Shown here piece after piece: positions 1 through 12,489 of a DNA stretch of 64,000 nucleotides. Under the pieces are notes generated by a model. That model was not told the DNA's origin, ran no database searches, and was given only the letters and a program-made list of their open reading frames with translations. Where the stretch lies: positions 790,375 to 854,374 of the forward strand of contig JAKZAN010000002.1 in assembly GCA_023053545.1 (NCBI GenBank). The letters are read 5' to 3'. This DNA comes from Lepidurus packardi. Its lineage: Eukaryota; Arthropoda; Branchiopoda; Notostraca; Triopsidae. Position numbers and translations under genes: made by a program. The first letter of the stretch is position 1; every line of letters begins with the position of its first letter.

Positions 1-1447
1 AGTTGCGAACAGACTGGTTCAATTGATCCAGTTGGGCTCGCAATGTGTCGATGGTGGCCCGCAGCGAAGCGTCTGGAGACGTCGGGAGGAGTGCCTCAGT
101 TGGTGTTAAGTCGGCTAATTGACCATTCAAAGTAGCTTCAAAATCTCGGACTGACTGATTTGCACGACGTCTTTCCTCATTGTCTTCAATGTCGTTAATC
201 TCAGCCCCAACGCGCGTTTTGGTGGTACTCCAGGCATCTTTCACATGGTTAATAATGATTTTTGCATATTTGAGGGTTTTTCCAAGGACCCTTGTCCGCT
301 TTTCCTGGTTGAACCATGGTGCAATAGACTCTTTCCGGTATAGCATCGCGTAGAGAGTGTCTACCGCAGATGGACCGAGAGGCTTTAGCGCCTTGTAAAC
401 CTCATCAATAAAGCCGAGATCCACTAAATAGATAATATCTACAATTCGCGGCTCTGGAAGTGCAGTTGCCATCAGTGCCACCCTGGCTTGATCTCTAGAG
501 CTGTGCAGATGAGCCCTCACCCCAGAAGTATTATAGGCCGCCCAATCCGCCTTCTCTTTTTCGTCCAATGATTCTGCATGATATAACAACCCCAAGTAAG
601 CAAATTTTGGGAAGTTAGAGACTTGAAGAGCTGGGTGTAATGTAGCAGTCATTCCTCGGAACGGCTGCCCGTGAATCATAGCCATGGCGTTGTCCAATGC
701 CGTTGCCTCAGCTTCAAAATTTGTACTGAGGGGGGTTTGTTCGTTGAGGGTGGCTGTACGTACTAGTCCTGCAAATGTGAGGGTTGAAAGGTGAACGTAT
801 GAGAACACTAATCTCAAACCATCAAGAATAGCAACTCCCCATGGGGTCATGCCCGGAACCAACCGAAGAGCTTCTAGTGTGACCATCGTGTCTTTAGTTA
901 CTTCTAAGGAGTATAACATTAAGGAATCACGACCAATTGTCATCCCTAGTGCGGTTGTTACTGACCCATCTACATCCCCGGGGGCTACCCCCAGTGTTCC
1001 GTAAATTAGACGGAATTGAGTTAGCTCAAGGGTTTCTTGCCCAGCATTAGCAGAGCAAGCTTTGTAGCGACCATATAATTGAGTGGTGATCGTGTTGTCC
1101 CGAGTATACCCGGAGACAAAACACATAATCGCGGTCTTGGCATAGAATGCTTTAGTAAATTGCACTCTATTAACAATTACAGTTCCCTCCTCCGGGGCAC
1201 CCCGAGATGTCTCTGCTGTCTGGTAGTTATATTGTTGAAACAACCGTCGAAACTCCGGAAGTACATACGGAAATAGATGAAGTAGTGTGCTCAAGATTTT
1301 CTCTACTTGAGTTACATTAGGACACAGCAATAGAGCATCAAGTTGTCGATCATTGCAGAGGAAAAACACCGATCGAGAATCAACTAACCCAACATTATTT
1401 ATGTAAGAATGTGCTTTTATTCTCCCGCTTGTTTTTGAGTACCCCAC
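1..1447 (-). CDS. Nucleoprotein-like viral ORF, copy 1 (cut by window edge)
   Basis: This copy stays open from 1447 to the window edge, about 482 of the 487 codons seen in copies 2 and 3. I see no frameshift in it. It differs from copy 2 by a few substitutions only. The protein is mainly helical in composition, with no signal peptide or membrane segment. I read it as a nucleocapsid protein of a mononega-like or jingchuvirus-like RNA virus that was reverse-transcribed into the genome. That assignment rests on general resemblance and on the mRNA-like poly(A) structure, not on a decisive motif. The codon at 1447 is GTG, directly after an in-frame TAG (1448-1450), so the true start is unclear. 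Confidence 0.55.
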   Translation of the reverse strand, partial: MGYSKTSGRIKAHSYINNVGLVDSRSVFFLCNDRQLDALLLCPNVTQVEKILSTLLHLFPYVLPEFRRLFQQYNYQTAETSRGAPEEGTVIVNRVQFTKAFYAKTAIMCFVSGYTRDNTITTQLYGRYKACSANAGQETLELTQFRLIYGTLGVAPGDVDGSVTTALGMTIGRDSLMLYSLEVTKDTMVTLEALRLVPGMTPWGVAILDGLRLVFSYVHLSTLTFAGLVRTATLNEQTPLSTNFEAEATALDNAMAMIHGQPFRGMTATLHPALQVSNFPKFAYLGLLYHAESLDEKEKADWAAYNTSGVRAHLHSSRDQARVALMATALPEPRIVDIIYLVDLGFIDEVYKALKPLGPSAVDTLYAMLYRKESIAPWFNQEKRTRVLGKTLKYAKIIINHVKDAWSTTKTRVGAEINDIEDNEERRRANQSVRDFEATLNGQLADLTPTEALLPTSPDASLRATIDTLRAQLDQLNQSVRN

Positions 1448-1556
1448 CTATATTCTCCCGAGAACACTAGATGTCGCCCTCCACATGCATGAAGCCATGC
1501 ATGTGGCTGATTAGTCCGCTATTGCCCAATACTGTGAATCCCCTTATTATGTACGA
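1448..1556 (-). other. 5' leader of nucleoprotein-like copy 1
   Basis: The leader is the same in all copies apart from one substitution in copy 3. It contains a short inverted repeat around ATGCATG near 1485-1505 and an ATG in the same frame as the ORF, with a TAG stop between them. Its 5' end at 1556 abuts the tRNA 3' end after one extra base (1557). Confidence 0.6.
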
Positions 1557-1557
1557 C

Positions 1558-1643
1558 TGGCGCAGCCGGTAGGATTCGAACCTACGCTCCCAATCGGGAA
1601 TCTGATTTCTAGTCAGACGCCTTAACCGCTCGGCCACGACTGC
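1558..1643 (-). tRNA. tRNA-Ser (anticodon AGA) sequence with encoded CCA
   Basis: An 83-base class II tRNA (1561-1643) folds with a 7-bp acceptor stem, an anticodon loop CTAGAAA giving AGA, a short variable arm and a T arm with GGTTCGAATCC. A box-A-like and a box-B sequence are both present. CCA follows directly at 1558-1560. Eukaryotic nuclear tRNA genes do not encode CCA; it is added to the mature RNA. So this copy was probably made by reverse transcription of a mature tRNA. Its 5' end sits directly against 29 A residues of the preceding viral-like transcript. Expression is possible because the internal promoter is intact, but no T-run terminator follows closely. Confidence 0.85.
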
Positions 1644-1672
1644 TTTTTTTTTTTTTTTTTTTTTTTTTTTTT
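1644..1672 (-). other. Poly(A) tail of nucleoprotein-like copy 2
   Basis: There are 29 consecutive A residues on the minus strand, after a 3' UTR of about 75 bases that lacks AATAAA. The last base of the tail touches the first base of the tRNA. Copies 2 and 3 end their 3' UTR with the same GTATTCAG before the tail, with AAC inserted here. Confidence 0.8.
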
Positions 1673-1745
1673 GTTCTGAATACTCCCCACTACAACTATA
1701 TACCACATTGTCCTATTCAGTTAAGAATAGTTTTGAAGTTTCTTT

Positions 1746-3209
1746 CTAATGGGTGTATTGGAAGTTGCGAACAGACTGGTTCAATTGATCCAGTTGGGCT
1801 CGCAATGTGTCGATGGTGGCCCGCAGCGAAGCGTCTGGAGACGACGGGAGGAGTGCCTCAGTTGGTGTTAAGTCGGCTAATTGACCATTCAAAGTAGCTT
1901 CAAAATCTCGGACTGACTGATTTGCACGACGTCTTTCCTCATTGTCTTCAATGTCGTTAATCTCAGCCCCAACGCGCGTTTTGGTGGTACTCCAGGCATC
2001 TTTCACATGGTTAATAATGATTTTTGCATATTCGAGGGTTTTTCCAAGGACCCTTGTCCGCTTTTCCTGGTTGAACCATGGTGCAATAGACTCTTTCCGG
2101 TATAGCATCGCGTAGAGAGTGTCTACCGCAGATGGACCGAGAGGCTTTAGCGCCTTGTAAACCTCATCAATAAAGCCGAGATCCACTAAATAGATAATAT
2201 CTACAATTCGCGGCTCTGGAAGTGCAGTTGCCATCAGTGCCACCCTGGCTTGATCTCTAGAGCTGTGCAGATGAGCCCTCACCCCAGAAGTATTATAGGC
2301 CGCCCAATCCGCCTTCTCTTTTTCGTCCAATGATTCTGCATGATATAACAACCCCAAGTAAGCAAATTTTGGGAAGTTAGAGACTTGAAGAGCTGGGTGT
2401 AATGTAGCAGTCATTCCTCGGAACGGCTGCCCGTGAATCATAGCCATGGCGTTGTCCAATGCCGTTGCCTCAGCTTCAAAATCGGTACTGAGGGGGGTTT
2501 GTTCGTTGAGGGTTGCTGTACGTACTAGTCCTGCAAATGTGAGGGTTGAAAGGTGAACGTATGAGAACACTAATCTCAAACCATCAAGAATAGCAACTCC
2601 CCATGGGGTCATGCCCGGAACCAACCGAAGAGCTTCTAGTGTGACCATCGTGTCTTTAGTTACTTCTAAGGAGTATAACATTAAGGAATCACGACCAATT
2701 GTCATCCCTAGTGCGGTTGTTACTGACCCATCTACATCCCCGGGGGCTACCCCCAGTGTTCCGTAAATTAGACGGAATTGAGTTAGCTCAAGGGTTTCTT
2801 GCCCAGCATTAGCAGAGCAAGCTTTGTAGCGACCATATAATTGAGTGGTGATCGTGTTGTCCCGAGTATACCCGGAGACAAAACACATAATCGCGGTCTT
2901 GGCATAGAATGCTTTAGTAAATTGCACTCTATTAACAATTACAGTTCCCTCCTCCGGGGCACCCCGAGATGTCTCTGCTGTCTGGTAGTTATATTGTTGA
3001 AACAACCGTCGAAACTCCGGAAGTACATACGGAAATAGATGAACCAGTGTGCTCAAGATTTTCTCTACTTGAGTTACATTAGGACACAGCAATAGAGCAT
3101 CAAGTTGTCGATCATTGCAGAGGAAAAACACCGATCGAGAATCAACTAACCCAACATTATTTATGTAAGAATGTGCTTTTATTCTCCCGCTTGTTTTTGA
3201 GTACCCCAC
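1746..3209 (-). CDS. Nucleoprotein-like viral ORF, copy 2 (intact 487 codons)
   Basis: This uninterrupted 487-codon ORF is nearly identical to copies 1 and 3. The first codon is GTG after an in-frame TAG (3210-3212); the first in-frame ATG comes about 100 codons later, so initiation is unresolved. Composition and length fit a nucleoprotein of a negative-strand RNA virus (Mononegavirales or Jingchuvirales). I cannot identify the family from the sequence alone. A diverged relative of its C-terminal region is fused to a BEL gag at 5481-5806, so this protein family entered the genome more than once or diverged after entry. It could be a young insertion that has not yet decayed, or one kept for function. 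Confidence 0.55.
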   Translation of the reverse strand: MGYSKTSGRIKAHSYINNVGLVDSRSVFFLCNDRQLDALLLCPNVTQVEKILSTLVHLFPYVLPEFRRLFQQYNYQTAETSRGAPEEGTVIVNRVQFTKAFYAKTAIMCFVSGYTRDNTITTQLYGRYKACSANAGQETLELTQFRLIYGTLGVAPGDVDGSVTTALGMTIGRDSLMLYSLEVTKDTMVTLEALRLVPGMTPWGVAILDGLRLVFSYVHLSTLTFAGLVRTATLNEQTPLSTDFEAEATALDNAMAMIHGQPFRGMTATLHPALQVSNFPKFAYLGLLYHAESLDEKEKADWAAYNTSGVRAHLHSSRDQARVALMATALPEPRIVDIIYLVDLGFIDEVYKALKPLGPSAVDTLYAMLYRKESIAPWFNQEKRTRVLGKTLEYAKIIINHVKDAWSTTKTRVGAEINDIEDNEERRRANQSVRDFEATLNGQLADLTPTEALLPSSPDASLRATIDTLRAQLDQLNQSVRNFQYTH

Positions 3210-3319
3210 CTATATTCTCCCGAGAACACTAGATGTCGCCCTCCACATGCATGAAGCCATGCATGTGGCTGATTAGTCCGCTATTGCCCAATACTGTGAA
3301 TCCCCTTATTATGTACGAC

Positions 3320-3405
3320 TGGCGCAGCCGGTAGGATTCGAACCTACGCTCCCAATCGGGAATCTGATTTCTAGTCAGACGCCTTAACCGCTCGGCCACG
3401 ACTGC
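3320..3405 (-). tRNA. tRNA-Ser (AGA) sequence with encoded CCA, second junction
   Basis: This is identical to the tRNA-Ser copy at 1558-1643: 83 bases (3323-3405) plus CCA (3320-3322). It lies between poly(A) of copy 3 and the leader of copy 2. The same exact end-to-end junctions occur on both sides. The stems are intact and show no sign of decay. Confidence 0.85.
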
Positions 3406-3424
3406 TTTTTTTTTTTTTTTTTTT
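3406..3424 (-). other. Poly(A) tail of nucleoprotein-like copy 3
   Basis: There are 19 A residues on the minus strand, ten fewer than at the other junction. They join GTATTCAG of the 3' UTR to the first base of the tRNA. Confidence 0.8.
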
Positions 3425-3494
3425 CTGAATACTCCCCACTACAACTATATACCACATTGTCCTATTCAGTTAAGAATAGTTTTGAAGTTTCTTT

Positions 3495-4958
3495 CTAATG
3501 GGTGTATTGGAAGTTGCGAACAGACTGGTTCAATTGATCCAGTTGGGCTCGCAATGTGTCGATGGTGGCCCGCAGCGAAGCGTCTGGAGACGTCGGGAGG
3601 AGTGCCTCAGTTGGTGTTAAGTCGGCTAATTGACCATTCAAAGTAGCTTCAAAATCTCGGACTGACTGATTTGCACGACGTCTTTCCTTATTGTCTTCAA
3701 TGTCGTTAATCTCAGCCCCAACGCGCGTTTTGGTGGTACTCCCGGCATCTTTCACATGGTTAATAATGATTTTTGCATATTCGAGGGTTTTTCCAAGGAC
3801 CCTTGTCCGCTTTTCCTGGTTGAACCATGGTGCAATAGACTCTTTCCGGTATAGCATCGCGTAGAGAGTGTCTACCGCAGATGGACCGAGAGGCTTTAGC
3901 GCCTTGTAAACCTCATCAATAAAGCCGAGATCCACTAAATAGATAATATCTACAATTCGCGGCTCTGGAAGTGCAGTTGCCATCAGTGCCACCCTGGCTT
4001 GATCTCTAGAGCTGTGCAGATGAGCCCTCACCCCAGCCGTATTATAGGCCGCCCAATCCGCCTTCTCTTTTTCGTCCAATGATTCTGCATGATATAACAA
4101 CCCCAAGTAAGCAAATTTTGGGAAGTTAGAGACTTGAAGAGCTGGGTGTAATGTAGCAGTCATTCCTCGGAACGGCTGCCCGTGAATCATAGCCATGGCG
4201 TTGTCCAATGCCGTTGCCTCAGCTTCAAAATCGGTACTGAGGGGGGTTTGTTCGTTGAGGGTGGCTGTACGTACTAGTCCTGCAAATGTGAGGGTTGAAA
4301 GGTGAACGTATGAGAACACTAATCTCAAACCATCAAGAATAGCAACTCCCCATGGGGTCATGCCCGGAACCAACCGAAGAGCTTCTAGTGTGACCATCGT
4401 GTCTTTAGTTACTTCTAACGAGTATAACATTAAGGAATCACGACCAATTGTCATCCCTAGTGCGGTTGTTACTGACCCATCTACATCCCCGGGGGCTACC
4501 CCCAGTGTTCCGTAAATTAGACGGAATTGAGTTAGCTCAAGGGTTTCTTGCCCAGCATTAGCAGAGCAAGCTTTGTAGCGACCATATAATTGAGTGGTGA
4601 TCGTGTTGTCCCGAGTATACCCGGAGACAAAACACATAATCGCGGTCTTGGCATAGAATGCTTTAGTAAATTGCACTCTATTAACAATTACAGTTCCCTC
4701 CTCCGGGGCACCCCGAGATGTCTCTGCTGTCTGGTAGTTATATTGTTGAAACAACCGTCGAAACTCCGGAAGTACATACGGAAATAGATGAAGTAGTGTG
4801 CTCAAGATTTTCTCTACTTGAGTTACATTAGGACACAGCAATAGAGCATCAAGTTGTCGATCATTGCAGAGGAAAAACACCGATCGAGAATCAACTAACC
4901 CAACATTATTTATGTAAGAATGTGCTTTTATTCTCCCGCTTGTTTTTGAGTACCCCAC
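3495..4958 (-). CDS. Nucleoprotein-like viral ORF, copy 3 (intact 487 codons)
   Basis: This is an intact copy of the same protein. It differs from copy 2 at only a few residues: V to L near residue 57, S to A in a TSGV motif, W to G near residue 420, E to K near residue 433 and S to T near residue 463. The in-frame TAG before the GTG (4959-4961) is shared with the other copies. The leader ends at 5067, where unrelated sequence begins without a tRNA. That makes this the 5'-most unit of the array. Confidence 0.55.
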   Translation of the reverse strand: MGYSKTSGRIKAHSYINNVGLVDSRSVFFLCNDRQLDALLLCPNVTQVEKILSTLLHLFPYVLPEFRRLFQQYNYQTAETSRGAPEEGTVIVNRVQFTKAFYAKTAIMCFVSGYTRDNTITTQLYGRYKACSANAGQETLELTQFRLIYGTLGVAPGDVDGSVTTALGMTIGRDSLMLYSLEVTKDTMVTLEALRLVPGMTPWGVAILDGLRLVFSYVHLSTLTFAGLVRTATLNEQTPLSTDFEAEATALDNAMAMIHGQPFRGMTATLHPALQVSNFPKFAYLGLLYHAESLDEKEKADWAAYNTAGVRAHLHSSRDQARVALMATALPEPRIVDIIYLVDLGFIDEVYKALKPLGPSAVDTLYAMLYRKESIAPWFNQEKRTRVLGKTLEYAKIIINHVKDAGSTTKTRVGAEINDIEDNKERRRANQSVRDFEATLNGQLADLTPTEALLPTSPDASLRATIDTLRAQLDQLNQSVRNFQYTH

Positions 4959-5067
4959 CTATATTCTCCCGAGAACACTATATGTCGCCCTCCACATGCA
5001 TGAAGCCATGCATGTGGCTGATTAGTCCGCTATTGCCCAATACTGTGAATCCCCTTATTATGTACGA
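4959..5067 (-). other. 5' leader of nucleoprotein-like copy 3 and array boundary
   Basis: The leader matches those of the other copies, except for one substitution in GACATATAG. Homology stops precisely after 5067. Across this boundary the minus strand reads GGTGTGGGCGGT and then the leader. The shared breakpoint marks the 5' end of the template RNA. Confidence 0.7.
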
Positions 5068-5197
5068 ACCGCCCACACCAACGAAGTAATAGCTCAGCTT
5101 ACTAGTTAATTGTTTTCCTGGTGGCTTTCATTTTATCAATCAGGGCAGTCAGAATTTGCCTTTAGTAGGGGTCGGTATTCGCCTTTGGTGGATAGTA
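5068..5197. other. Unassigned spacer
   Basis: No gene or repeat is recognised here. The plus strand is open from 5110, but it encodes nothing I recognise before the duplicated gag segment. Confidence 0.4.
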
Positions 5198-5279
5198 ACA
5201 AAAGGGACATCCTTTACCGTCATCCAGCTGTGGAGGTGTGGGGGCTGGATTTCCAGCTGTCAAGGCTGATAGCGTCGGC
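5198..5279. repeat. 82-bp exact duplication of BEL-A gag segment
   Basis: This stretch is identical to 6167-6248, in the same orientation, with a constant offset of 969 bases. It carries the antisense of a gag segment upstream of the zinc knuckles. It is joined directly to a sense-strand piece of BEL pol at 5280, so the join switches strand relative to the element. Confidence 0.9.
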
Positions 5280-5465
5280 TGACCTTGCCTCACGGGGGGA
5301 GCTTACCTCCAATCTAATCAACAATCTTGCATGGTGGAAAGGTCCCGTCTGGTTGACTCAACCAGAACAGCACTGGCCTCAACACAACGCAGTCAAAAAA
5401 TGTAACTCAAATTCCAAGGTCTGGTCGGAATTGAAGAAAACCCAAACTACTCTCACTGTTACAGA
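5280..5465 (+). pseudogene. BEL/Pao pol fragment (RNase H / integrase linker)
   Basis: The plus strand encodes DLASRG followed about 15 residues later by WWKGPVWL. This pair is characteristic of BEL/Pao polyproteins between RNase H and integrase (the usual form is NPADxASRG...WWxGPxWL). Only about 60 codons remain, with no start or stop of their own. It lies opposite in strand to the gag at 5807-7283 and is probably a rearranged part of the same or a related element. Confidence 0.75.
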
Positions 5466-5480
5466 TTCCGTAAAATCAAC

Positions 5481-5806
5481 CCGCCTGATTGATTTGCCCG
5501 ACGTCTATCTTCGGTGTCCTCAATATCATTAATCTCTTCTCCGATGCGAGTCTTAGTTGCACTCCAAGCATCCTTCACGTGAGCGACAATGATTTTGGCG
5601 TATTCAAGAGTTTTCCCAATAACTCTTGTTCGCTTCTCTTGGTTAAACCATGGAGCGGTGGATTCTTTGCGGTACAACATCGCATAGAGGGTATCCACAG
5701 CTGACGGGCCAAGGGGTTTTAGAGCTTTATAAACTTCATCAATAAACCCGAGATCCACCAGGTAAATGATGTCTACAATTCTAGGTTCCGGGAGGGCCGT
5801 TGGCAT
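5481..5806 (-). pseudogene. Diverged nucleoprotein-like fragment fused to BEL gag
   Basis: About 108 codons match residues about 334-441 of the 487-codon nucleoprotein-like ORFs, with roughly 85-90 percent identity by eye. Homology begins at the LPEPRIVDIIYLVD region and stops in the NQS motif near 5481. The upstream side runs straight into the 3' end of a BEL gag in another frame; the words GCC...GCCCT are compatible with both reading frames at the join, which suggests microhomology. It is a separate, older or different viral lineage from the tandem array. Confidence 0.8.
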
Positions 5807-7283
5807 AAACAGTAGCCGTTTGTAAGGCCACCGTGCTGCTGAGGGTCAGATTTGCTAATGTCGTAACGGGTTCGGAATTAGGCTCAGGAGTGTTATTCGT
5901 AGCAGGCGTTTTCGGTTGCTGGGCATCGCTAGAAGGATCGTTGGCCTTTTTGGCAGAGGGGTTTCCCTTCTGGTTGCCTTCAGGTCGACTGCAAATTGTA
6001 GTGTGGTGTTTGCCTTTACAAGTTCGGCATCGTTGATTGGCGATAGGGCAAGTGCTAATCATGTGGCCTCTCTTCAGGCAGTTGTTACAACGACCTTGTT
6101 TTTTCAAGGAGTTACGACGTTCGGATTTTGGTTGGGAACAGGCATAAGCGTTGTGCTCGTGGGAGTTACAAAAGGGACATCCTTTACCGTCATCCAGCTG
6201 TGGAGGTGTGGGGGCTGGATTTCCAGCTGTCAAGGCTGATAGCGTCGGAACGGATGGTTTGGAGGATTCCGGCAACTGTGAGGAATCAGAGGAATTTTTT
6301 GTAGGACACAATAGTTGGCATCGTTCTCTACTCTCCACTTCAGTTCGTAAAAAGGACATAAGGTCTGTCAAATCCATGGAGCCCTTGCACTGGCGTGTAA
6401 AATCAAGCACCAAATCGCGAGGGATCTTGGCTAAAACTGCCGTGGGGAGTAAGGTGCCATAGGTGGCTGGAGGGATATTCAAAGATTTTAATCCATTGAT
6501 GTGCCCTTGGCATGTGTCGTAAAGAGATCGAAGTTGTTTCACATCCCGAGATTGCCTTATTGGTGGTAGGTCTAAGAACCCTTTCATGTGCGCCGAGATG
6601 ATGACTTCAGTTCGTCCAAACCTTTCTTTCAAGATTCGGATTGCTTCGTCGTAGTTGGCATCTGTAAGTTGTATACAGTCGACCGCTTCCAATGCTTCTT
6701 TCTGCAACAGGGATTTCAAGTAAGTGAATTTATCTATGTTGGATAATGCTGGTTGATCGTGGATAGCATGCTGGAAACAATCCCAAAATGATTGCCACTG
6801 ATAAACATCTCCGGAAAAGGTTCGCAATTCTAGTTTGGGGAGTCGTAAGTGAGCCGAAGCACTCGTCGTCGTAGGCGTAGGGGGTGTAGGGACGTTGCTG
6901 GCTATCAAATGCGTCTGAGTTCCGGGTAGCCCTGTTGGTGATGGAGAAGTATTCACTAGCTGGATTTCAACACGAGTATTCATTTCGATGTATTCGTCTT
7001 CATAAGTGGCACACTCGACTATGTCGGCGTCGAGATCCTCTTCGGAAGCAAGGATAGTCTGTATCTGGTTCGAGATATCTTGCAGAGTCTTGAGTCTGTT
7101 TCCAAGTTGAGCCACTCCATAACGCAGTTGATCGAGGTCGGGGGCACCGCTATCGAATTGTCGTTTCAGCTTAGCTATGTGGTCGTTAAAAAGGCGTCGA
7201 TGTGCTCCTCTTTTCCTCTTTAGGCTAGTCAGAAGTCCAGCATCCGGGGGTTGCGTATGGCTGGTACCAGGATTGTCGGCCAT
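5807..7283 (-). CDS. BEL/Pao retrotransposon gag (element A), 3' truncated
   Basis: The ORF of about 490 codons starts at an ATG (MADNPGTSH) just downstream of a primer-binding site. The middle has the BEL capsid pattern LPKLELRTFSGD..W..FW..F near residue 150. The C-terminal third carries three Cys-His boxes, including CNNCLKRGHMISTC and CRTCKGKHHTTIC, which bind nucleic acid in the particle. The ORF nominally continues to 5781, but the last residues come from the fused viral fragment. Protease, RT and integrase are missing downstream. The product would be a particle protein only, so the copy is not autonomous. Confidence 0.85.
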
Positions 7284-7587: not shown

Positions 7588-7593
7588 CCTTGT

Positions 7594-8328
7594 CGCTTGT
7601 CGCATCAGTCATTTGTCAGGTAATTGTGAGGTAACGTTCTGTCGGTCACATGTGCCTCATGATCGTCTTGCTGGTAGATGCCGTCTGCACAAAGAAACCC
7701 AAGAGGTAATAGCACAGAAACTTACTGTCGGTATCTCCAAACGTAAAATCATACAAAGCATTTTGAGAGAGAATTTAGATGAGCCTCCTTGTCGTGATAA
7801 TGCTATTACTATGAAGGATCTTCATAATGCCGAAAACAAAATTCCAAATCCCTTCCGGAAACACTCTGTAGATCACGAAAGCGTTGATTTGTGGGTTGAG
7901 TTAAGTGAGTGGGTTAAGTGTGTTTTTGGCACTAATTAATTTGTTTACCTTAATTGCAGAAGACCAACGTAATGAAGTTGCCGCAGTGGCCGATGGAGCG
8001 TACCAATTGGCTTTTTTTAAGGGGTTGATGGGGGCTGCAGTGGGTGCTGCAGTCACTGCAGCCCTCCAACATGGAGTGAACCCCGAGGCGGTGGAGGCGA
8101 TTGCCCGCGGGGCAGCGGGCGGAGTGGGCCCAAGGCTGGGAAGTATCCGCCGCCCGAGAGCGTAAGTTTTTGATTATCCTCTAATTATGCAGAAAACTTA
8201 TGCTTTATTTTAGTTCTCGAGGTTACTGCAGCAATTGCAAAGCACGCGGCCACCAAGCGCACAGCTGTAAAGCCCCGGCTGCCCGAGTACAAGAAAAAAA
8301 AAGCAGCACAAGAAATGAAGAAGCTTAA
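7594..8328 (+). CDS. Probable spliced chimeric gene: MULE segment plus zinc-knuckle exon
   Basis: Exon 1 (about 7594-7904) is an inverted copy of MULE-1 sequence (10650-10949), with no difference that I can see. A donor GTGAGT at 7905 and an acceptor TTGCAG at 7954-7959 join it in frame to exon 2 (7960-8161), which encodes an Ala/Gly-rich segment with a GAAVGAAVTAAL stretch. A donor GTAAGT at 8162 and an acceptor TTTTAG at 8208-8213 lead to exon 3 (8214-8328). That exon encodes a CX2CX4HX4C knuckle (CSNCKARGHQAHSC) and then a stop. AATAAA lies at 8355. No convincing ATG is seen in the 5' part; the first in-frame ATG is near 7812, so an upstream exon may exist. Function is unknown; nucleic acid binding is a fair guess from the knuckle. 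Confidence 0.55.
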
Positions 8329-10614: not shown

Positions 10615-12489
10615 TTATAAAAAAAATACTGGATTATCTAGCCTCACTGCCATCTCTTCAACCCACAAATCAACGCTTTCGTGATCTACAGAGTGTTTCC
10701 GGAAGGGATTTGGAATTTTGTTTTCGGCATTATGAAGATCCTTCATAGTAATAGCATTATCACGACAAGGAGGCTCATCTAAATTCTCTCTCAAAATGCT
10801 TTGTATGATTTTACGTTTGGAGATACCGACAGTAAGTTTCTGTGCTATTACCTCTTGGGTTTCTTTGTGCAGACGGCATCTACCAGCAAGACGATCATGA
10901 GGCACATGTGACCGACAGAACGTTACCTCACAATTACCTGACAAATGACTGATGCGACAAGTGATAAAACCAATACAAGACACTCCTGTACGACACGAGC
11001 CTAGACGTTTGAGGGCACGTTTACCCATGCTACGATTTTTGTAAGAAAAGGACCGATTACACATATAAGTCGTCGTAGTGAAGCTTGTGTGACGACGAGC
11101 TCCCCTTCGGCTAACGAAAGAAACTCCGTCAGCTTTTTCTAACTCTGTTTTCCAGAGTTCAAAAGTATTTCTGTCATGAAATGTGCTGCTTTCAATTTTA
11201 CAATGGAAGCTATGCTTAATCCTAACATGTGCAACGTATTCTACCAGCTTATTCACTGCTAAGCCACAATACCAACAAATTATCCGTTTAGTGTTCTGTT
11301 TTACTGTTCGTGAATCAAATTTTCGATCACCCGAATCGCTATCTTCGGAAAATATGACAGCACTGTCACTGGCGTCTTGTTCGGAGTCCTGGGATTTCGT
11401 TTCTTTACTATCATCAGATTCAGCCCTGCTTAATAGTGGCTCAACTTCTTCTTCTACCTCAAGTTCTTCTTCTTCTACCTCAAGTTCTTCTGTATAAGGT
11501 ACTGGGTCGGACTGCGAAGAACCTGACTTTCCTTCAGGAACTAATGAGACAGAGACTATTCTCTCGTTCGAAGTTTTATTGCTTACAGGACCTTTAATTT
11601 TTGTTTTTAAAGAACTATGTACCACCTCAATATGACGTTCAAGCCCATACTTCCTAGCAAACCTTTTCCCACACTTACTGCAAACATTCTTTGCTTCTTT
11701 TAGCATGTTGCATCCTGCCAAACGTACGTGACGCTCTAAGTTAAATACCCTCGTGAACTCGGCTTTGCATTTTTTGCACCTTAACTCAGCTTGATTCTGT
11801 TGTTGTTCAATTTGAGAATCAACAGAACATGTGACAATATCACTGACTGACCTACGTTTAGGCAAACTAGAATCTCCTTTACGTTTTGTTTCGGTATTCC
11901 TTTCTTTACTGTTGGGATTCTCGAAATCACTGTCCGACTCTTGCTTTATTTCTCCAACAGGTCTAGCAACGACCAGATCAATAACGCTAACTTCATCTGA
12001 CTTATTTGCTGTTTTACCTTTTGTCCTCGACAATTTAGCACCTTTGCGACTAGCTGCAATTTTGAAACTGCGATCTGCAAACTGACCAGAATACGGACTA
12101 GAACTGACCACCTTTGGGCAAAGTGGTACAAAATGTTTCGGCTGCCAACCACACGCAAGAACTGACCGCCCTTCTTTCTTCTGCAAATGTGCTTCCACGT
12201 TTCCACCACACCATAAAATTCGGAGAATTTCTGGGCTGTTGCAACCAATAGGGACAAAATTCATATTGAAATGCAAGGCAGGGTGATGCGTACTACTTGA
12301 GGGAACATCGACAACTGGATAAACTGACTCTACGGTCCTATGACAAACATTGGCCAAGGCAGCGAAAGACACTAATGACGCGTATTGCCCTGACTTTGCC
12401 TGCTCCATCGCATAAATAACTATAATCTTTTGCGCGTTCCCGATATCAGTGTTTGGGAACTCCAAACCAGGAAACAGAAAGCGCGTCAT
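10615..12489 (-). pseudogene. MULE-1 OTU C-terminal half, acidic linker and C2H2 fingers
   Basis: The ORF begins in the second half of an OTU-type cysteine protease domain, ending with WQPKHFVPL, whose His fits the OTU catalytic His. Two C2H2-like fingers follow (CKKCKAEFTRVFNLERH and CSKCGKRFARKYGLERH), then a Glu-rich low-complexity linker, a third finger (CWYCGLAVNKLVEYVAH), and the N-terminal part of the MULE protein. The last part is the source of the inverted copy at 7594-7899. Compared with MULE-2, the frame is broken at both ends. Confidence 0.75.

Follow-up and report, generated by a model that had tools for sequence, protein, structure and literature searches.

Three processes that bear on the locus described here are already known separately: the capture of viral RNA by long terminal repeat (LTR) elements, the retroposition of mRNAs mediated by such elements, and the copying of tRNA into retroviral DNA. 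In Bursaphelenchus xylophilus, a nodavirus-like endogenous viral element (EVE) was captured by an LTR retrotransposon, which was explained by copy-choice during reverse transcription (PMC5177903), and in LTR-mediated mRNA retroposition an mRNA is copied in the particles of an LTR element after template switching (Tan et al. 2016, as described in PMC5408686). A retroviral circle with a reverse-transcribed tRNA between its LTRs was reported by Colicelli and Goff (1986, as described in PMC12220202), and a Jurkat clone carried a copy of mature tRNA-Gly with its CCA that abutted an HIV provirus (PMC12220202). In HIV-1 experiments, plus-strand strong-stop DNA normally stopped at m1A58, and unmodified tRNA was copied to its 5' end (PMC13191261). 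Here we describe an array of nine near-identical units in the notostracan Lepidurus packardi, part of which lies in a window of 64,000 nt (C2:790375-854374, contig JAKZAN010000002.1; the assembly searched comprises 108.6 Mb in 344 contigs). Each unit, read on the strand of the LTR element (+), consists of LTR positions 1-155, a C, the full complement of a tRNA-Ser, poly(T), the antisense sequence of a viral N gene, an A and the next LTR. We consider it rather probable that the array goes back to an LTR element of errantivirus-like type, which copied its own primer tRNA and a foreign viral mRNA by reverse transcription, the product being amplified later.

The Colicelli and Goff circle resembles the array in that a used primer tRNA was copied beyond the primer-binding site (PBS) and retained beside the LTR ends; unlike the array, it held a tRNA-Gly between two LTRs, 4 bases short at the 5' end, and it led to no foreign RNA (PMC12220202). 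In the array, the tRNA copy is complete, continues into the poly(A) of another virus's mRNA and is fixed in the genome. The Jurkat case likewise has a reverse-transcribed mature tRNA with CCA beside retroviral DNA, but this was a non-primer tRNA that lacked 5 bases at its 5' end, the authors propose independent integration, and no foreign mRNA follows (PMC12220202). Compared to the HIV-1 experiments (PMC13191261), the array is a natural genomic copy beside LTR-element sequence. In the Bursaphelenchus case the viral gene sits inside a Bel/Pao-type element, and the available text mentions no tRNA (PMC5177903), whereas the viral copy of the array runs antisense to its element, to which a whole tRNA links it. 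The switches of Tan et al., as described in PMC5408686, use microsimilarity, whereas the joint in the array is end-to-end, the RNA is viral and the product is tandemly amplified. A viral mRNA joined to an LTR element via a complete primer tRNA was not found among the titles and abstracts listed in searches of the open-licence literature.

The array runs leftward beyond the window on C2 down to position 785602, where there is a gap of 100 N, and its other end was located on contig C23 (C23:18877-25000). The two parts of unit 6 are at C2:785602 and at the end of C23 (25,000 bp): in its coding piece of 1,423 bases, C23 stops at base 893 and C2 restarts at base 892, with no coding base missing or repeated. 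As the end of C23 lies inside the array and meets the 100-N gap on C2, scaffolding seems to have cut a continuous array. Both C23 and C33 are exactly 25,000 bp long. From right to left, the parts of the array inside the window are as follows.

5068..5196, +: LTR positions 156-284, extending the last LTR (element on the + strand; the end is fuzzy by a few bases)
4913..5067, +: LTR positions 1-155, the right-hand LTR of unit 1; its antisense was termed a 'leader' in a preliminary description of this DNA
4912..4912, +: the one A that separates antisense N from LTR position 1
3425..4911, -: N coding piece of unit 1 with stop codon (3497-3495), 3' untranslated region (UTR) and gene-end-like TTCAG (3429-3425)
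3406..3424, -: poly(A) of unit 1, 19 nt
3320..3405, -: complete mature tRNA-Ser(AGA) with CCA, interpreted as the primer tRNA of the element
3319..3319: one base between CCA and LTR position 155, compatible with the AC that separates LTR end and PBS in native copies
3164..3318, +: LTR positions 1-155 separating units 1 and 2 (with an A at 3163 as spacer)
1676..3162, -: unit 2, N piece and 3' UTR
1673, -: extra base before the A-run of unit 2 (C in the mRNA sense), seen in 4/9 units
1644..1672, -: poly(A) of unit 2, 29 nt
1558..1643, -: second tRNA-Ser(AGA)-CCA of the window, same sequence as the first
1402..1556, +: LTR positions 1-155 separating units 2 and 3
1..1400, -: unit 3, cut by the window edge (complete at C2:790288-791930)

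On C2 and C23 together we counted nine tRNA copies, nine poly(A)/tRNA joints, nine tRNA/LTR joints and nine N/LTR joints, and at each of the three joints (LTR/tRNA, tRNA/poly(T), N/LTR) the bases were identical in 9/9 units. Re-reading the sequence confirmed the minus-strand order given in the preliminary description (leader, open reading frame (ORF) and poly(A), then tRNA-Ser-CCA) and its poly(A) lengths of 29 and 19: the A-runs at 1672-1644 and 3424-3406 touch the 5' end of the tRNA with no gap. Its proposal that a reverse transcriptase (RT) joined an mRNA and a mature tRNA end to end, running from the 3' to the 5' end of the tRNA and on to the poly(A) tail, is also supported. The junctions were as exact as it had claimed at the tRNA 5' end, at the CCA and at the leader bases 1556, 3318 and 5067 (the last being the start in unit 1), except that a single extra G (3319, 1557) separates the CCA from the leader starts at 3318 and 1556. 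At the right end of the array LTR positions 156-284 follow, not a bare leader. A pattern of ten A followed by the first 15 tRNA bases (up to two mismatches) had nine matches in the assembly, all inside the array; therefore chance is no serious explanation. Thus the search of this genome for other such junctions, which the preliminary description had suggested, yielded none outside the array.

The leader, which had been taken as part of the viral mRNA, is instead the antisense of positions 155 to 1 (155 bp) of a 454-bp LTR, plus one base. In a genome search with the unit, the leader occurred alone at at least 19 places outside the array, with four pairs 8.8-9.0 kb apart. The full LTR as a query gave at least 42 matches, and among those listed 24 span positions 1-454 and one spans 1-452. 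The three LTR pairs that we read have the form TGTAAG...TTACA (TG..CA ends) and are oriented along the + strand of the window; in all three native copies the LTR is followed by AC and then the PBS, and a purine tract ending in A precedes the 3' LTR. An earlier assignment of the leader to a minus-strand R-U5 was dropped, as the PBS and the long ORFs turned out to be on the + strand. A truncated LTR at C5:11319545 (LTR 1-165), considered as a second chimera, was only a shortened 3' LTR with no tRNA or poly(T) after it. In the copy on C16, pol contains RVT_1 (6e-40), RT_RNaseH (3.8e-41), Integrase_H2C2 (4.4e-23) and rve (2.8e-12), gag matches Retrotrans_gag at 7.1e-4 (20.2 bits, under the curated cut-off of 24.1), and the second env ORF matches Baculo_F (1.3e-9), the first env ORF having no Pfam match. 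Target duplications of 4 bp were present in two of the three native copies (CTAT on C16 and, once the printed ends are shifted by one base, AAGA on C86) and not in the copy at C5:11431795. By the gag, pol and env matches of the C16 copy, the source of the LTR is a Ty3/gypsy gag-pol-env element, errantivirus-like in type, a name that we take from its domains rather than from an RT tree. The ten LTR pieces of the array share a 29-mer with a rare base that occurs nowhere else in the assembly, and the common base at that position was found at 17 other sites (counted as exact 29-mer matches).

The tRNA of the array is identical across 86 bases including CCA in 9/9 copies. The native PBS matched the last 18 bases of tRNA-Ser(AGA) plus CCA at 18/18 positions in five of the six AGA genes read, and at 17 in the sixth. 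Outside the array there are ten tRNA-Ser-like places, and none of the nine that we read encodes CCA (the tenth is a partial match on C6). Toward the LTR, the CCA of the array tRNAs is followed by G or GT, which fits the complement of the native AC spacer. The acceptor G of the array tRNA is as in the two CGA genes, and a 17-mer from its variable loop is restricted, within the assembly, to the nine array copies. The array tRNA is best read as the element's own primer, copied over all 86 nt with the CCA, a link that the preliminary description had not made; a tRNA of primer type explains why it is a tRNA-Ser and why the CCA is at the joint. The joint itself reads as the PBS side of an element without LTR 156-454, where the tRNA copy continued to the 5' end.

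The viral part of the unit lacks about 148 codons compared to full-length relatives on C5 and C1. Its frame is open to the normal stop in all nine units, no ATG opens it, and an in-frame TAG, read by eye, directly precedes its GTG. The window ORF is 88% identical to the N of C5, and the N of C1 84%. Between the N of unit 5 and its C5 relative, 84% of synonymous but only 4.8% of nonsynonymous sites differ (uncorrected); by this difference the N lineage was under selection, as a viral gene, up to its capture. On C1 the order of genes in the EVE is N, an ORF in place of P, and an ORF with a Monjiviricetes fusion glycoprotein domain (PF24664, 1.2e-31); the middle ORF had no significant Pfam match and is P-like by position only. 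N itself had no significant match in Pfam or PDB, its link to the class coming via the glycoprotein neighbour on C1, and a scan of viral contigs contained no relative of N. The relatives, the glycoprotein neighbour and the synonymous excess agree with the original view that the mRNA is viral-like. The EVE on C1 (C1:10,624,001-10,644,000) forms tandem repeats of 5,245 bp, each with N, the P-position ORF and the glycoprotein in that order and with TTAGAAAAACC motifs separating the genes, and one further copy is on C33. On C5 (C5:10,400,001-10,440,000), tandem EVE repeats of 5,338 bp join the N gene to flavivirus-like reading frames, which matched Flavi_E_stem (2.9e-19) and solved flavivirus envelope proteins (best 5e-44); stretches resembling prM and NS1 were identified there by eye only.

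The A-runs, of a poly(A) type and 19-30 nt long in 9/9 units, are a sign of an mRNA template. In the array, 65 nt separate the stop codon from the TTCAG before the A-run (window 3494-3430), and at the N/P boundary of C1 there are 65 nt from the stop to TTTAG, where CTTAGAAAAACC recurs at the next boundary. The A-run thus starts where, by comparison with C1, a viral gene-end signal would be expected, suggesting that the N mRNA was made by a viral polymerase.

How could an LTR element, its primer and this mRNA have been joined? On its LTR side the unit begins with LTR base 1, the start point of plus-strand DNA. In the explanation that we consider rather probable, one particle would have held the element RNA, tRNA-Ser and the viral N mRNA. 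Plus-strand DNA would have started at the polypurine tract and copied U3, LTR 156-454 being lost at a one-base microhomology by a jump or a deletion (an A is shared at the LTR 155 breakpoint). The plus-strand strong-stop DNA would then have copied the attached primer tRNA beyond the usual stop, to its 5' end; we infer this read-through because the order on the + strand is LTR base 1, U3, full tRNA, poly(T) and antisense N. From the 5' end of the tRNA, an end-to-end jump would have led onto the poly(A) tail of the N mRNA, which would have been copied until a halt near codon 149. The N end would have been joined to an LTR end still carrying one untrimmed base, since the A at the N/LTR joint (4912) is the base that precedes the 3' LTR, at the end of the polypurine tract, in the three native copies read. 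The chimera would then have entered a BEL/Pao copy and been amplified to nine units, probably by unequal exchange between the LTR repeats and with at least one duplication of a three-unit block.

A version of this explanation differs in amplification and integration only, and the probabilities of the two overlap: the chimeric strong-stop DNA would have been circularised, in the manner of a retroviral circle with a tRNA in the junction, multimerised and recombined with a resident LTR (1-284). A single untrimmed base between N and LTR base 1 is what a circle junction might leave, and the last LTR is without the 156-454 deletion and resembles a resident or wild-type copy; both would fit such a minicircle. 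But the rare base of the other array LTRs is also present in the last one, although nothing requires this of a resident LTR, and there is no direct trace of a circle; we regard this version as possible but not likely.

We aligned the nine units, as the preliminary description had proposed, and found that 17 of 1,643 aligned sites vary (tRNA and A-runs left out), 11 of them privately and 6 in a shared manner. The shared sites are nested rather than all independent: they define four splits (U2,4,7; U3,6,9; U3,6; U1,3,6,9), which are all mutually compatible. The mean number of differences was 3.17 at lag 3 compared to 6.0 at lag 1 and 5.6 at lag 2, and a lag-3 likeness of this size was matched by 1.3% of all unit orders (2.6% with free choice of lag 1-4). 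Because the 17-mer of the tRNA loop and the LTR 29-mer are found in the array only, the variants nest and the units are alike at lag 3, we favour one founder unit, which would later have been amplified with at least one three-unit block. Eight of the 17 variable sites form four adjacent pairs (274/275, 683/684, 835/836, 1030/1031), an apparent excess of double substitutions.

Several observations weigh against an errantivirus-like origin from one founder. Rooting of the unit tree with C5 and C1 leaves at least one conflict, as site 275 is outgroup-like in U2, U4 and U7; conversion or more than one template is therefore possible, and assembly polishing of near-identical units may give rise to such conflicts. 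The extra C expected from its group is missing in U7, the A-runs take seven length values over the nine units (19, 29, 30, 27, 28, 29, 21, 25, 19), and among the matches listed in the genome search there is no single founder unit elsewhere. On the side of the element, LTR copies that match neither 29-mer fall outside the count for the rare base, and LTR 156-454 is gone from every internal LTR, which requires an extra deletion or jump. A scan with a short motif list gave no support for LTR base 155 as a cap or poly(A) site. The array tRNA itself pairs with the native PBS at 17/18 positions, one fewer than 5/6 AGA genes, and its variable loop reads GATT and not TCT as in the AGA and CGA genes read. 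Finally, the insertion site is rearranged on one side, as described below.

The variation among units also bears on the model that the preliminary description had put first, in which one RT alternated between N mRNA and tRNA nine times in one cDNA. The seven A-run lengths and the extra C before the run in 4/9 units would suit such successive jumps, as would the end-to-end joints at both tRNA ends, and the outgroup-like letters scattered over the units could reflect several templates. However, the LTR piece, the N truncation and the rare LTR base would have to be alike in all of the 'mRNAs', and the unencoded loop in all of the tRNAs; the 6/17 variable sites common to at least two units are nested, the likeness recurs at lag 3, and slippage also alters homopolymer runs. 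The state before the A-run had been considered as proof of independent mRNAs and was set aside: the C tracks the groups at site 1475 in 8/9 units (U7 is the exception), the C-less state accompanying the outgroup letter at that site. We therefore judge successive jumps quite improbable, and the claim that an errantivirus-type RT itself alternated primer tRNAs and N mRNAs nine times, the array being a direct record of a processive jumping enzyme, a shade less probable again. The identical tRNAs, the array-only 17-mer and 29-mer and the nested variants speak against it, and the alternative that the preliminary description had also named, one chimera followed by tandem duplication, fits the compatible splits and the lag-3 likeness better.

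The imperfect PBS match (17/18) and the one base between CCA and LTR 155 could instead point to a free tRNA as the template. Here the RT would have copied an RNA whose first base is LTR antisense base 155 as far as its 5' end and, after adding a single untemplated base, moved on to the CCA of a free tRNA and from there to poly(A), with amplification later. Other reverse transcriptases are known to jump end to end from one RNA to another. This route requires an antisense LTR promoter, and it leaves the primer-type identity of the tRNA and the AC-compatible spacer base unexplained; we consider it unlikely, although less so than the successive jumps.

At the left end of the array the LTR begins right after ATAG, without the extra A, and seven of the eight left-flank paralogs that we fetched continue through the breakpoint (the eighth is without that part of the flank). 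ATAG is also present at the right end, where the following bases differ from the empty site. A target-site duplication outside the array, which was to be looked for according to the preliminary description, is thus probable in the form of a 4-bp repeat (ATAG), but on the right the sequence is rearranged and has 3 bases fewer than the empty site of the paralogs. These ends also bear on a LINE-type (non-LTR) origin, in which the viral mRNA would have been retrotransposed next to a tRNA gene before an LTR inserted and tandem duplication took place. The N copy does have a poly(A) tail, as expected from such an event, but the tRNA carries CCA and no genomic 3' trailer, LTR sequence adjoins both the CCA and N, and the ends that we read have only the 4-bp repeat and no long target duplication. 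This origin is very improbable.

To the right of the array we found the following features.

5198..5278, -: 81-bp BEL/Pao gag fragment directly beyond the array
5278..5484, +: 207-bp piece with matches on C4 and C58, inverted relative to the gag fragment (BEL/Pao pol by eye)
5485..5806, -: fragment from another N lineage (about 76% identity), adjoining BEL/Pao gag
5781..7283, -: BEL/Pao gag ORF (DUF1759, 4.1e-36) in the array flank, outside the chimera

Window 5197-7283 is thus a mosaic, in which gag stands with a pol-like fragment in inverted orientation and with another N lineage; N may have been captured here a second time, by a different LTR family. Further to the right there is an inverted pair (window 7590-7899 and 10658-10967) of 310 bp and 99.4% identity, with its arms about 2.8 kb apart.

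The entry of non-retroviral RNA viruses into animal genomes is usually inferred from nearby LTR elements. The joints of this array point to a specific route, in which plus-strand DNA passes through the element's own primer tRNA onto the poly(A) of a viral mRNA. Such a route predicts a signature that can be searched for in other genomes, namely an LTR or PBS, a complete primer tRNA and poly(T), and it suggests that a failed stop at m1A58 in the primer tRNA could favour the capture of foreign mRNAs.

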